Positions 10,231-14,269 of a stretch of 37,095 nucleotides of DNA are shown one piece after another. The position numbers and the translations under genes were made by a program. Each line of letters starts with the position of its first letter. Position 1 is the stretch's first letter. Source of the DNA: Clostridia bacterium (GTDB taxonomy: Bacteria > Bacillota > Clostridia > Christensenellales > Pumilibacteraceae); contig JAGAPA010000001.1 of NCBI GenBank assembly GCA_017623455.1, positions 1-37,095 on the forward strand, read 5' to 3'. A model generated the notes under the pieces. The model was not told the origin of the DNA. It made no database searches and saw only the letters and a list, made by a program, of their open reading frames with translations.

Positions 10231-10464
10231 GGGTTTTTTTGCAATTTAGTTTTTTTTAGTCAATTTTGCAATAAACTTGTTGATATAGTTATATTACTAT
10301 TCCGACTGAATGTTGTATTTGTATAATTATTATTCTATCTAACTTTTACAGCAAGAGGTGGTTTTCAGTACTATTTTTACACCGAAAAGAGAAAAATTAT
10401 GAAAGTCACTAAAAAATAAGTTGCTTTTTATCTTAATTATTTTAAAAAAACGACCCTATTTTGC
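10231..10464. other. AT-rich gap between divergent yloU and rpmB promoters
   Basis: About 230 bp, very AT-rich, with long T and A runs. I see no ORF with a start codon and ribosome-binding site longer than 6 codons, and no RNA gene. It separates the two divergent promoters. Confidence 0.6.
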
Positions 10465-10532: not shown

Positions 10533-10715
10533 ATGAGCAGAGTTTGTGTTATTTGTGGTAAAGGAAAAACAAGTGGTAACAACGTAAGCCACTCTAATCG
10601 TCATACCAGACGTACTTTTAGCGCTAACGTTCACAAAGTAAAGGTAGAGATCAACGGTGTTACTTCTAACGAATACGTATGCACCCGTTGTTTGCGTACC
10701 AGCAAAAACGCGTAA
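10533..10715 (+). CDS. rpmB: 50S ribosomal protein L28
   Basis: This 60-residue protein begins MSRVCVICGKGK with NVSHSNRHTRR and ends EYVCTRCLRTSKNA, all L28 hallmarks. Cys 5, 8, 50 and 53 form the zinc-binding pairs of the Cys-containing L28 type; bacteria with zinc-dependent regulation often also carry a Cys-free copy elsewhere. AGGGAGG lies 8 nt before the ATG, which fixes the start over the longer in-frame ORF from 10461. It is the only credible plus-strand gene in the window, flanked by its own promoter and terminator, and sits between yloU and the rpe end of the yicC operon as in Bacillus. Confidence 0.96.
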   Translation: MSRVCVICGKGKTSGNNVSHSNRHTRRTFSANVHKVKVEINGVTSNEYVCTRCLRTSKNA

Positions 10716-10739
10716 TTTTTTATAGTATTTGCTACTTTG

Positions 10740-10771
10740 AGCGGTTTATACCTTGTATAGACCGCTTTTTT
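10740..10771 (+). terminator. rpmB terminator
   Basis: A 12-bp stem (AGCGGTTTATAC with GTATAGACCGCT, one G-U) and a CTT loop are followed by TTTTT. It lies 24 nt past the rpmB stop. Confidence 0.9.
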
Positions 10772-10850
10772 CGTTTGGAAAATAATAAATAAGGATCGGG
10801 GGAGGAGAATCCCCTCCACTACATTGAGAGTAAGCGGAGGCGTACTCCCA

Positions 10851-10921
10851 AACAAAAGAACTAATGGTGGTTTACTACTCTCTTTGCTAAAGGACAATAA
10901 TTGGATGCAACGTCACGTTGC
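10851..10921. repeat. 71-bp repeat unit, copy 1
   Basis: Matches 11106-11176 with a single G/C difference (offset 255 bp). It ends in the GCAACGT-C-ACGTTGC palindrome shared with 195-215. Confidence 0.85.
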
Positions 10922-10981
10922 TGTGCGCTTTCGCACCGGGAGGAGTTAAACCCCTCCCCTACAGTTAGTTGTAATAAAAGA

Positions 10982-11033
10982 GGGCGATTCGTGAATCGCC
11001 CCTACAAATAGAGTAACTATCGACAGTTAATTG
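10982..11033. repeat. GGGCGATTC-palindrome repeat, copy 1
   Basis: The palindrome GGGCGATTC/GAATCGCCC is followed by CTACAAATAGAGTAACTATC; the unit recurs at 11306-11357 with one base change. Confidence 0.8.
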
Positions 11034-11105
11034 TTTGGTTTGTTAAGGGACAAATATTGGGAGTGCGCCTTCGCACCGTCACGCATACTGCGGAGGCATA
11101 TTCCC

Positions 11106-11176
11106 AACAAAAGAACTAATGGTGGTTTACTACTCTCTTTGCTAAAGCACAATAATTGGATGCAACGTCACGTTGC
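11106..11176. repeat. 71-bp repeat unit, copy 2
   Basis: Second copy of 10851-10921. The last 30 bp also recur at 11372-11401. Confidence 0.85.
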
Positions 11177-11305
11177 CCTTCGCACCGTCACGCTTGCTCG
11201 CAATGACAGCGGGGGGAGATGGGGTTTTATTGGGATTGCCGCGCTATCGCTCGCAATGACGTCGGGGGGAAGAATTAGCGGTAGTTGTACCTCGTTTAGT
11301 CGTAC

Positions 11306-11357
11306 GGGCGATTCGTGAATCGCCCCTACAAATAGAGTAACTATCGACAATTAATTA
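11306..11357. repeat. GGGCGATTC-palindrome repeat, copy 2
   Basis: Second copy of the unit at 10982-11033 (cgacaGtta there, cgacaAtta here). Confidence 0.8.
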
Positions 11358-11544
11358 TTTGATTTATTAAAGCACAATAATTGGATGCAACGTCACGTTG
11401 CTGTGCGCCTTCGCACCGTCACGCTTACTGCGGAGGCGGTGGGCAGACCCACTCTCAATTTGAAGAACTAATGGTGGTTTGTTGTTTGATACGTTAAAGA
11501 ACAATAATCGGGTGTGCGCCTTCGCACCGTCACGCTTGTTAATT

Positions 11545-11584
11545 TAAGAAAAAACGACCAAGATTGTATTCTTGGCCGTTTTTT
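11545..11584 (-). terminator. Terminator of the yicC-to-spoVM operon (bidirectional)
   Basis: A 13-bp stem with one mismatch (11551-11563 with 11570-11582) and a 6-nt loop has T-runs on both strands. On the minus strand it starts 4-6 nt past the stop of the 20-codon ORF, as expected for the end of the operon. Confidence 0.85.
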
Positions 11585-11587
11585 GAT

Positions 11588-11650
11588 TTACTTAACGAAC
11601 AGTCTTAAGATATGCCGTATTACGGGTGGGGCTTTAATGCATATTATCAT
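11588..11650 (-). CDS. spoVM: Probable SpoVM, small spore-coat anchoring peptide
   Basis: This 20-codon ORF has a strong GGAGG 9 nt before its ATG, a TAA stop and a terminator straight after. The peptide reads M-II-C-IKAPP-VIRH-ILRLF-VK. It shares with SpoVM the IK-x-P core (Pro 8 here, Pro 9 in Bacillus), the basic/hydrophobic amphipathic pattern and the I-x-R spacing. SpoVM inserts shallowly into the curved forespore membrane and recruits the SpoIVA ATPase for coat assembly. In Bacillus spoVM lies between rpe/thiN and rpmB, on the strand opposite rpmB; this ORF occupies exactly that place, 64 nt after rpe. A short peptide gives little sequence evidence, so the call rests on synteny, ribosome-binding site and pattern. 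At 20 residues it is shorter than the 26 of Bacillus. It may have its own sporulation promoter; I see no clear one. Confidence 0.62.
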   Translation of the reverse strand: MIICIKAPPVIRHILRLFVK

Positions 11651-11714
11651 TATGATATTCCTCCGTTTTGCTTTGATAATATCATATTATGCGCTAAAAT
11701 CCCACGCGTTACTT

Positions 11715-12386: not shown

Positions 12387-13235
12387 TCAATATTTTTTCT
12401 TTTTGTTTTTAAGTTCGTTATAAGTTTCCACGTAGCGAAGATATCTGTCTTTGCTGACAGAGCCTTCTTCTACCCTTTTCTTAACTTCGCATCCCGGCTC
12501 GTTTATGTGCTTGCACCTATGATATTTACAGCTCATTGACAGCTCTACGTACTCGCTGTAATACAAGTCAAGCTCGTCGTATTCCACGTCGAACACGTCC
12601 AAAAGACCAAAACCCGGAGTGTCTGCAACAAAAGTGCTTTCGTCAAGCTTATAAAGAGTTGCTCTTGTGGTTGTGTTTCGTCCTCTGTTTATCGCGCTAA
12701 GCTCTCCGCTTTTGGCAATCTTTTCGCCGTGGAGCGCGTTTACAATAGACGATTTACCAACCGCAGACTGTCCTGCCAAACACGAGAATTTGCCTTTAAG
12801 CGCGTCTGTAAGCTGACTAATATCGTTATCTTTTGCGCAAGTGGAAATAATTTTAACGTCCGCGCCGTACTGGTCTTGCACTTTGTTTAAGAAAGTATCG
12901 TCCAAGTCTGTTTTGTTAACGCAAATGATAAAGCCGATATTCCTACGGGCGCAATTTATATGCATTTTATCTACAAGATAGAAGTCCGGCTCGGGAACGG
13001 GCGCAATTGTCATAATTATGTTGTCTATATTGGCAATAGAGGGACGAATAAGGCTGTTTTTACGCTCCAAAACTTTTTTTACGGAAAGAACTCCGTCGCT
13101 ATTTTCAAGCTCGACAAAATCGCCAACCACAATATCCGAATTGCGCTTGACTTTTTTACGCGCGTAGCACGTTACGGTTTGACCGTCCATATCTACGGTG
13201 TATCTGTCGGTTTCTACCTTGATTACTCTGTTCAT
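12387..13235 (-). CDS. rsgA: Ribosome small-subunit biogenesis GTPase RsgA
   Basis: RsgA is a circularly permuted GTPase that checks late 30S maturation. In its 282 residues an OB fold (~1-65) comes first, then the G domain with NKTD (107-110), P-loop GQSAVGKS (155-162) and DTPGFG (205-210). A C-terminal zinc site follows with Cys 236, Cys 241, His 243 and Cys 249. Start and rlmN stop overlap as ATGA, so translation is coupled. In most Bacillota prpC and pknB lie between rlmN and rsgA; here they are missing and the two genes touch. Confidence 0.95.
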   Translation of the reverse strand: MNRVIKVETDRYTVDMDGQTVTCYARKKVKRNSDIVVGDFVELENSDGVLSVKKVLERKNSLIRPSIANIDNIIMTIAPVPEPDFYLVDKMHINCARRNIGFIICVNKTDLDDTFLNKVQDQYGADVKIISTCAKDNDISQLTDALKGKFSCLAGQSAVGKSSIVNALHGEKIAKSGELSAINRGRNTTTRATLYKLDESTFVADTPGFGLLDVFDVEYDELDLYYSEYVELSMSCKYHRCKHINEPGCEVKKRVEEGSVSKDRYLRYVETYNELKNKKKKY

Positions 13236-14269
13236 TCTGCCTCGCCTATATATTTACGTCTGAGTTGTCCGCACGCTCCGCCTATATCGCTTCCTTTACT
13301 CTTTCTTATGGTGGCGCTAACTCCCATAGAATTGAGTCTTTCGCAAAACCTGTCGGCCTCTTGCTTGGTGCATCCCTTTATTCCCTTTTCTTTTACGTAA
13401 TTTAGAGGGATAAGATTGACGTGGGAGGGATAGCCCGACGTAATCTCTTTTAGCCTCTTGCAATCGAAAAAGTTCATATTTATTTCTTTTATCATAGTAT
13501 ACTCGAAAATTATACGTCTGCCCGTCTTTTCGAAATAATACTTTACTGCTTTTACAATATCGGATATGGAATACTTGTTTGCTATTGGCATAACCGTTTT
13601 TCTGTATTCGTCGGTTGTAGCGTGCAAGGAAATGGAAAGATTAACCGAAAATCCCTCGTCTGCAAGCTTGTATATCTTATCGCACAGCCCACACGTGGAA
13701 AGCGATATATTACGCTCTGATATGTTTATGCCGTCCGGAGATGATACGAGGCGCAAAAACTTAGTAACCTCGTCGTAGTTGTCAAGCGGTTCTCCGCTTC
13801 CCATAAGAACGATGTTGGTTATCTTGCGTTCTTTGCCGTTGCCAAGCTCTCTGTTTACCGCAAGAACCTGTCCGAGTATTTCGCCTGCTGATAAATTCCT
13901 TACCAAGCCTCCAATACCCGAAGCGCAAAACCCACAACCCATTCTGCAACCAACTTGAGTGGAAACGCAAATGGTATTACCGTAATTTTGCATCATTAAC
14001 GCACCTTCTATAACGTTGCCGTCATAAAGCTTGTACAAATATTTTCTCGTTCCGTCCACGGAAACTAATTTTTCCAAAATCTCTATAGGTCTGTCTGAGT
14101 ACTCGGCTTTGAGCTGTTCGCGCAGAACAAGTGGCAGATTAGTCATTTGATCGTAAGACGAATACGAAGTAATCCATTCGTACACCTGTTTTGCGCGAAA
14201 CGCCGGTAAATTTTTTTGCTTAAACTCTTCTTTAAGCTCTTCTAACGTTAAATCGTGTAAAAAGGTCAT
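13232..14269 (-). CDS. rlmN: Dual-specificity 23S rRNA A2503 / tRNA A37 C2-methyltransferase
   Basis: This 345-residue radical-SAM enzyme has the cluster-binding Cys 108, 112 and 115 (CRMGCGFC) and a C-terminal catalytic Cys 333 in GGACGQL, which forms the covalent RNA adduct. GSGEPLDNY and SLHA are further RlmN/Cfr marks. It methylates C2 of A2503 in 23S rRNA and of A37 in some tRNAs. It begins 11 bp after rsmB with AGGAG 7 nt before ATG, and ends in an ATGA overlap with rsgA. The genomic place is that of housekeeping RlmN rather than the resistance enzyme Cfr. Confidence 0.95.
   Translation of the reverse strand: MTFLHDLTLEELKEEFKQKNLPAFRAKQVYEWITSYSSYDQMTNLPLVLREQLKAEYSDRPIEILEKLVSVDGTRKYLYKLYDGNVIEGALMMQNYGNTICVSTQVGCRMGCGFCASGIGGLVRNLSAGEILGQVLAVNRELGNGKERKITNIVLMGSGEPLDNYDEVTKFLRLVSSPDGINISERNISLSTCGLCDKIYKLADEGFSVNLSISLHATTDEYRKTVMPIANKYSISDIVKAVKYYFEKTGRRIIFEYTMIKEINMNFFDCKRLKEITSGYPSHVNLIPLNYVKEKGIKGCTKQEADRFCERLNSMGVSATIRKSKGSDIGGACGQLRRKYIGEAE

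Follow-up and report, generated by a model that had tools for sequence, protein, structure and literature searches.

A 20-codon open reading frame (ORF) downstream of rpe, in the 37,095-nt window analyzed here from the genome of an uncultured Clostridia bacterium (contig JAGAPA010000001.1; order Christensenellales, to which Candidatus Allochristensenella also belongs), is by its sequence an ortholog of spoVM, real, conserved and very short, and its product is probably functional. The most likely reading, to which we assign a probability of about 0.93, is that the gene is spoVM and that its peptide works as in Bacillus subtilis. This SpoVM identity, which agrees with the interpretation of the first-pass annotation, is supported by synteny, a match to a genus-independent profile, a same-genus intermediate that passes the NCBIfam model NF033436, and purifying selection. 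The ORF, its orthology, the selection on its protein and the presence of SpoIVA and SigE in the genome are direct observations. The features of the locus are as follows.

10533..10715, plus strand: rpmB (ribosomal protein L28), Pfam PF00830 at E 5e-18, convergent with spoVM
11549..11584, minus strand: hairpin terminator, a 15-bp hairpin of 36 nt that begins 3 nt past the spoVM stop codon
11588..11650, minus strand: spoVM ortholog, 20 codons from ATG to TAA, peptide MIICIKAPPVIRHILRLFVK; the sister genome has an equal ORF
11660..11664, minus strand: GGAGG ribosome-binding site, 9 nt 5' of the spoVM ATG, identical in the sister genome
11684..11691, minus strand: CATAATAT, possible -10 element for SigE/SigK, 41 nt 5' of the spoVM ATG, identical in the sister genome
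11715..12365, minus strand: rpe, ribulose-phosphate 3-epimerase, Pfam PF00834 at E 7.9e-77
12387..13235, minus strand: rsgA GTPase, Pfam PF03193 at E 3.7e-36
13232..14269, minus strand: rlmN-like radical SAM methyltransferase, Pfam PF04055 and PF21016

The coordinates and the translation that the first-pass annotation had given for a 20-codon spoVM-like gene are borne out, as are its GGAGG site, found to lie 9 nt before the ATG, and its immediate terminator. Pfam assignments of the flanking genes agree with the claimed place downstream of rpe and opposite rpmB. The genes rlmN, rsgA, rpe and the ORF follow each other on the same strand, with 64 nt between the rpe stop and the ORF start, and rpmB is convergent (its ATG after a GGAGG was picked by eye; the start in the ORF list is a TTG at 10461). 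The neighborhood rsgA-rpe-(thiN)-spoVM facing rpmB is present in the window, with thiN absent, and beyond rpmB lie genes for Asp23-like and FakA-like proteins by Pfam. The hairpin stretch downstream of spoVM folds at -19.4 kcal/mol (z -7.43). A simple terminator scan reported this hairpin on the plus strand only; it is symmetrical, with an A-run and a T-run, and thus possibly serves both directions. Between this terminator and rpmB no gene was read on the spoVM strand. Direct repeats, some with units of ~80 bp and others shorter, occupy the gap of ~870 bp from rpmB to the spoVM stop (10716-11587); GGGCGATTCGTGAATCGCCCCTACAAA, for example, is there in two exact copies. Matches of three of its repeat-unit sequences (up to five mismatches) within the window are confined to this gap.

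Scored against a SpoVM profile made from 38 SpoVM-like peptides downstream of rpe in relatives, none of them from the window's own three-member genus, the ORF reached 38.2 bits (E 5.8e-11). The runner-up among the 1134 ORF/start candidates of 15-80 residues in the window scored 7.8 bits, and the top score in 60 Markov-randomized windows was 13.8 bits. Comparison of the window genome (G000) with that of the sister species (G001; Rpe 92% identical) revealed 10 nucleotide differences in the 60 coding bases of spoVM, affecting eight codons, seven of them silently and one by a change from Val to Ile. When 10 changes were placed at random, none of 200,000 placements gave one or fewer amino-acid changes. 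The start, the stop, the ribosome-binding site and the upstream block CATAATATGATATTATCA are identical in the two species, and 8 sites differ in the 64 nt 5' of the ORF. The sequences diverge 3' of the stop, where each species has its own terminator. The first-pass annotation had proposed to look in close relatives for selection on the ORF and for frameshifts or stops: the excess of silent changes between the two species strongly argues for purifying selection on the peptide, and neither of the two genus relatives read has a broken copy.

The same annotation had proposed a search with PF08183, which did not recognize the peptide: the 20-mer matched neither Pfam PF08183 nor an NCBIfam model even at E 10, a null result to be read with the fact that HMMER filters drop weak matches, and an order-specific profile was therefore used instead. 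Searching the whole window genome with NF033436 at E 0.01 also gave no match. The corresponding peptide of the third genus member (G002) passes NF033436, with 35.8 bits against a cut-off of 31. Among five order peptides beside that of the window, two reach the NF033436 cut-off, one of them exactly, and one reaches that of PF08183. Such a curated cut-off is a detection threshold and no biological trait. Across the class, NF033436 matched 94 of 291 genomes. Just one of the 94 belongs to the order of the window, and its matching sequence is interrupted by a stop.

Of the 61 genomes searched, 60 have rpe, and the region downstream of it was read in 59 (the window genome included; one with rpe at a contig edge was left out). 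A SpoVM-like ORF of the expected pattern was found in 41 of the 59, directly after rpe or after thiN (thiamine pyrophosphokinase, Pfam PF04263 in both relatives tested). Among the 18 pattern misses, G043 and G052 do carry SpoVM at this site, their Asn at position 7 not having been allowed by the search pattern, and G038 and G041 gave a profile match, that of G041 being weak (E 0.0037). The order profile, derived from the alignment of the 41 syntenic peptides (A1), was run on 297 genomes of the order and at E <= 0.01 matched 192, although some of the lowest-scoring matches could be fortuitous. In the window genome its single match is the window ORF. A search of the PDB with this profile retrieved B. 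subtilis SpoVM (2mvh) at E 0.00025 over residues 1-17, and chain 2mvj, with Ala for Pro9, scored lower (E 1). In a scan of named genomes the profile found SpoVM-like ORFs at 8 of 80 loci; the many Lachnospiraceae loci of that scan showed no SpoVM-like ORF near rpe.

With window residue i corresponding to B. subtilis residue i+1, the peptide keeps the equivalents of Ile6, Lys7, Pro9, Ile15 and Arg17 (I5, K6, P8, I14 and R16), so that the IK-x-P core named by the first-pass annotation aligns to Ile6, Lys7 and Pro9. It is devoid of equivalents of Lys2, Lys10, Gly13 and Gly14, and the chain ends at position 21. The position aligned with Lys2 is the start Met; since Lys or Arg stands there in only 33 of 41 order members, Lys2 is not a defining residue. 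Pro9 is matched by Pro in 41/41 A1 rows and 27/27 rows from other orders, the search patterns having required Pro, and a named metagenome-assembled genome (L108) has Thr there. Position 6 is Ile, Val or Phe in 41/41 A1 rows, and position 7 is Lys or Arg in 40/41. The stretch after the first proline would be amphipathic if helical, with a hydrophobic moment of 0.80 that only 1.2% of 5000 shuffles reach. In the published SpoVM alignment Pro9 is the only fully conserved residue, and in B. subtilis it is needed to recognize positive curvature (PMC5607322). The same source describes that in B. subtilis I6A abolishes SpoIVA binding, and that K2A and I15A block the cortex.

The peptides of the window and of the sister species have 20 residues, compared to 21-35 in the other 39 A1 rows (the G017 row was entered in shortened form and understates its peptide), 21-55 in the 60 other order members found by profile and 22-29 in 27 members of other orders. 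These two are one residue shorter than any of the other 126 of the 128 sequences collected, with start codons chosen mainly by the ribosome-binding site and uncertain in some. The earlier expectation of one of the shortest SpoVM peptides thus holds within this sample. Part of the order (L204, L205, L211, L213, L222, L226-L228, L235, L044 and L046) has Asn for Lys7, followed by Pro-Pro (C-x-N-P-P), which forms a second variant of the core. In family f29 (L194, L199, L210, L212, L214-L216, L220 and L221) the peptide has a charged N-terminal extension of ~7-11 residues, and most of these genes show a CATA-containing box just 5' of the start codon selected and no obvious ribosome-binding site; their mRNAs might be leaderless or have very short leaders.

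The sequence CATAnnWW resembles the -10 element consensus of SigE promoters. It occurs within 90 nt upstream of spoVM in 35 of 88 order members; in 200 shuffles the count averaged 11.3 and never exceeded 19. The 88 upstream regions comprise the 41 A1 rows, G043, G052 and 45 of the 60 profile-found peptides; fifteen were left out, among them one duplicate peptide and nine of family f29. Combined with an ATA -35 at 14-18 nt, CATAnnWW was found in 1 of the 88 regions, not above the shuffle mean of 1.9, and CATAATAT in the window has no -35 match. CATAATAT is a candidate for part of the SigE/SigK-type promoter from which the window spoVM might be read.

The first-pass annotation had proposed to look for spoIVA, spo0A and sigE/sigK elsewhere in the genome. 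The window genome is a draft of 2.40 Mb in 96 contigs and is 77.6% complete; that of the sister species is 94% complete. SpoIVA and Spo0A score above their cut-offs, and SigE and a SigK-like protein each above one of two. SpoIVA (G000:C90:34890-36365, 492 aa) reaches 586.5 bits against 459.9 and matches its model end to end, and the Spo0A C-domain reaches 142.7 bits against 25. SigE passes NF006158 (359.1 against 339) and lies below TIGR02835 (344.7 against 348.6). The protein nearest to SigK passes the subfamily model NF004471 (288.8 against 252), which the SigE protein also passes (260.3), and lies below TIGR02846 (288.3 against 298.65). Two further proteins stay below their cut-offs, one that most resembles SigG (351.6 against 372) and one that is SpoIIGA-like and encoded directly upstream of SigE (92.6 against 209.55). 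On contig C90 (L073 and L077) the SpoIIGA-SigE pair and the SigG-like gene lie side by side on opposite strands; in B. subtilis spoIIGA, sigE and sigG are co-directional. The gene for the SigK-like protein, on contig C62, is preceded on its own strand by one for another Rpe-like epimerase with 38% identity to the window Rpe (L076). With SpoIVA, Spo0A, SigE and the SigK-, SigG- and SpoIIGA-like proteins, the genome carries much of the mother-cell program in which SpoVM works, and the organism may make resistant spores.

Other sporulation genes are represented unevenly. SigF was not among the sigma factors found with the SigG model in the 77.6% complete draft, and neither SpoVAC nor GPR was found there. 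SpoVAC is matched in 18 of 21 genomes, five above the curated cut-off and none of these in the window's family; the matches of G001 and G002 are below it, and so is every other match in an f1 genome. GPR exceeds its cut-off in both G001 and G002, and 16 of the 21 genomes match, 15 of them above the cut-off. The alpha/beta SASP family (PF00269) was found in one of the 21 order genomes (G000-G012 and G037-G044) and remained undetected in the other 20, including all three genus members; either these proteins are now too divergent for the model to recognize, or GPR, the SASP protease, cleaves other proteins. TIGR02764, considered as a model for SpoIIE, was rejected as it describes the PdaB family; it matched 20 of 21 genomes, none above the cut-off, and 11 of 14 controls as well. 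Metagenome-assembled genomes near Borkfalkiaceae have been described with sporulation genes, and cultured Christensenella as non-spore-forming (PMC11536998).

SpoVM of the order differs from that of the other orders at position 5, adjoining the SpoIVA-contact residue 6. Cys stands there in all 101 SpoVM peptides collected from the order: in 41/41 syntenic members, picked by patterns that required Pro and not Cys, and in 60/60 further members found by a profile that favors Cys; G043 and G052 have it too. The position is Val, Ala, Ile or Thr in 27/27 peptides of other orders of the class and Cys in none, this set having been found with NF033436, which may disfavor Cys, and 3 of the 30 loci there having yielded no peptide. 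B. subtilis SpoVM has Thr at this position. The window SpoIVA has glycine at 486, counted back from the C-terminus, the site at which G486V rescues SpoVM I6A in B. subtilis (PMC5607322). Full-length SpoIVA from 29 of 37 loci was aligned (six were missed by the script motif and two were fragments), and a C-terminal cysteine, fourth from the end and three after the Gly486 site, is present in all 29 clostridial proteins, 15 inside and 14 outside the order. Another cysteine, 166 residues from the C-terminus in G000, stands in 14 of the 15 proteins from the order and in 3 of the 14 from outside it. For B. subtilis SpoIVA the single substitution C98S is enough to give a protein free of cysteine (PMC4396682). 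B. subtilis has neither SpoVM Cys5 nor the C-terminal SpoIVA cysteine. A search for co-variation of SpoVM Cys5 with SpoIVA cysteines gave no clean pairing, as the C-terminal cysteine also occurs outside the order and the one 166 from the end in 3 of 14 others.

SpoIVA was found in 39 of 41 genomes with a syntenic spoVM ORF and in 13 of 18 without (Fisher p 0.023); adding the four genomes with a SpoVM match changes the counts to 43/45 and 9/14 (p 0.006). Among the SpoIVA genomes without the syntenic ORF, G038, G041, G043 and G052 have a SpoVM profile match, and G042, G045, G051, G053 and G059 have none in the order-profile search; G005, G014, G029 and G033, also SpoIVA-positive, may or may not belong to the order-profile sample. 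A speculative reading, which we consider unlikely, makes SpoVM of this order a thiol-bearing anchor, joined now or in the past through Cys5 to the C-terminal Cys of SpoIVA by a covalent bond. With such a thiol lock the peptide could have shrunk to 20 residues. The link is a hypothesis for which, among the lineages seen, thiols stand at both places in this order only. In the mother-cell cytoplasm of an anaerobe, a disulfide would be unexpected unless oxidation came later. A full-text literature search found no paper joining SpoVM with Christensenell*, and no examined passage of papers on SpoVM, cysteine and SpoIVA describes the residue at position 5.

By analogy with B. subtilis, SpoVM of the window would be made in the mother cell under SigE and form an amphipathic helix that contains the conserved proline (Pro8, equivalent to B. 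subtilis Pro9). This helix would insert into the membrane that surrounds the forespore and stems from the mother cell, read its curvature, and recruit SpoIVA via Ile5, the equivalent of B. subtilis Ile6. Translation, membrane binding, SpoIVA binding and timing are predictions from the known system. That the stretch from rpe to the terminator holds a chance ORF, or a small ORF of another kind such as one for a leader peptide, is extremely improbable: 20 codons are short enough to arise by chance and family profiles do not recognize the product, but the score lies far above those of the 60 randomized windows, there are syntenic orthologs and an excess of silent changes, and the terminator lies directly 3' of the ORF with no same-strand gene read before rpmB. 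It is very unlikely that the gene is a relict, in decay because its lineage no longer sporulates or is giving sporulation up. The shortened C-terminus and the missing Lys2 in what is, with its sister, the shortest of 128 peptides would fit such decay, as would the undetected alpha/beta SASP in the three genus members and the absence of GPR and SpoVAC from the window draft. However, seven of eight changed codons are silent, start and stop are identical, SpoIVA, SigE and Spo0A are present, and the 94% complete sister genome has GPR and a SpoVAC-like match.

The peptide could also derive from SpoVM and have been kept for another membrane or stress role instead of coat anchoring, for example via FtsH, which is named as a SpoVM partner in the title of a reference. 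Residues tied to cortex signaling in B. subtilis are lost, and C. difficile has little need of SpoVM (PMC5607322). Nevertheless, the equivalents of Ile6, Lys7, Pro9, Ile15 and Arg17 are kept, SpoIVA is kept with the Gly486 equivalent, and the SigE-like -10 is enriched upstream of spoVM across the order, so that we regard this role as highly improbable. Even for a coat-anchoring SpoVM, a need of the spore for it cannot be assumed, because SpoVM of C. difficile is described as largely dispensable (PMC5607322).

An uncultured order thus has a core coat gene that current profiles overlook, although Christensenella, its cultured representatives, are described as not forming spores (PMC11536998); the new order profile has matches in most of the genomes searched. 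Galperin et al. 2012 listed 70 spoVM genes that annotation had left out and that they newly identified, and called the protein rarely recognized (PMC3533761). As this under-annotation was already known, the new content lies in the order-wide cysteine and in the shortest form in the sample: the kind of protein is known, and the Cys5 pattern and the brevity are new. The finding bears on the open remark of the same authors about distant clostridial SpoVM where standard searches failed, though not for the genera that they named (PMC3533761). Moreover, the 20-residue form offers a tool to find the part of SpoVM that senses curvature. The order-wide cysteine leads to a testable prediction.

Compared to B. 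subtilis SpoVM (26 aa; PDB 2mvh), the window peptide shares Ile6-Lys7-x-Pro9, Ile15 and Arg17, and its amphipathic stretch has a moment of 0.80 against 0.78 for segment 10-17 of the B. subtilis peptide. It differs in length (20 residues), in the absence of Lys2 and of the last five residues, and in having Cys for Thr5, Pro for Lys10 and Arg-His for Gly13-Gly14. In B. subtilis, spoVM lies downstream of rpe and next to the convergent rpmB, with thiN between rpe and spoVM; the window locus has this arrangement minus thiN. With respect to the family models NF033436 (SpoVM_broad) and PF08183, the same-genus G002 peptide passes the former, whereas the window peptide is scored by neither. The proximity of spoVM to rpmB is described as conserved, and SpoVM of C. 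difficile, compared here by its description and not by sequence, is likewise a small basement-layer peptide, a partner of SpoIVA, encoded near rpmB and controlled by SigE (PMC5607322). The site of Gly486 is Asn in C. difficile SpoIVA according to the same source, whereas the window SpoIVA keeps the glycine of the B. subtilis protein.
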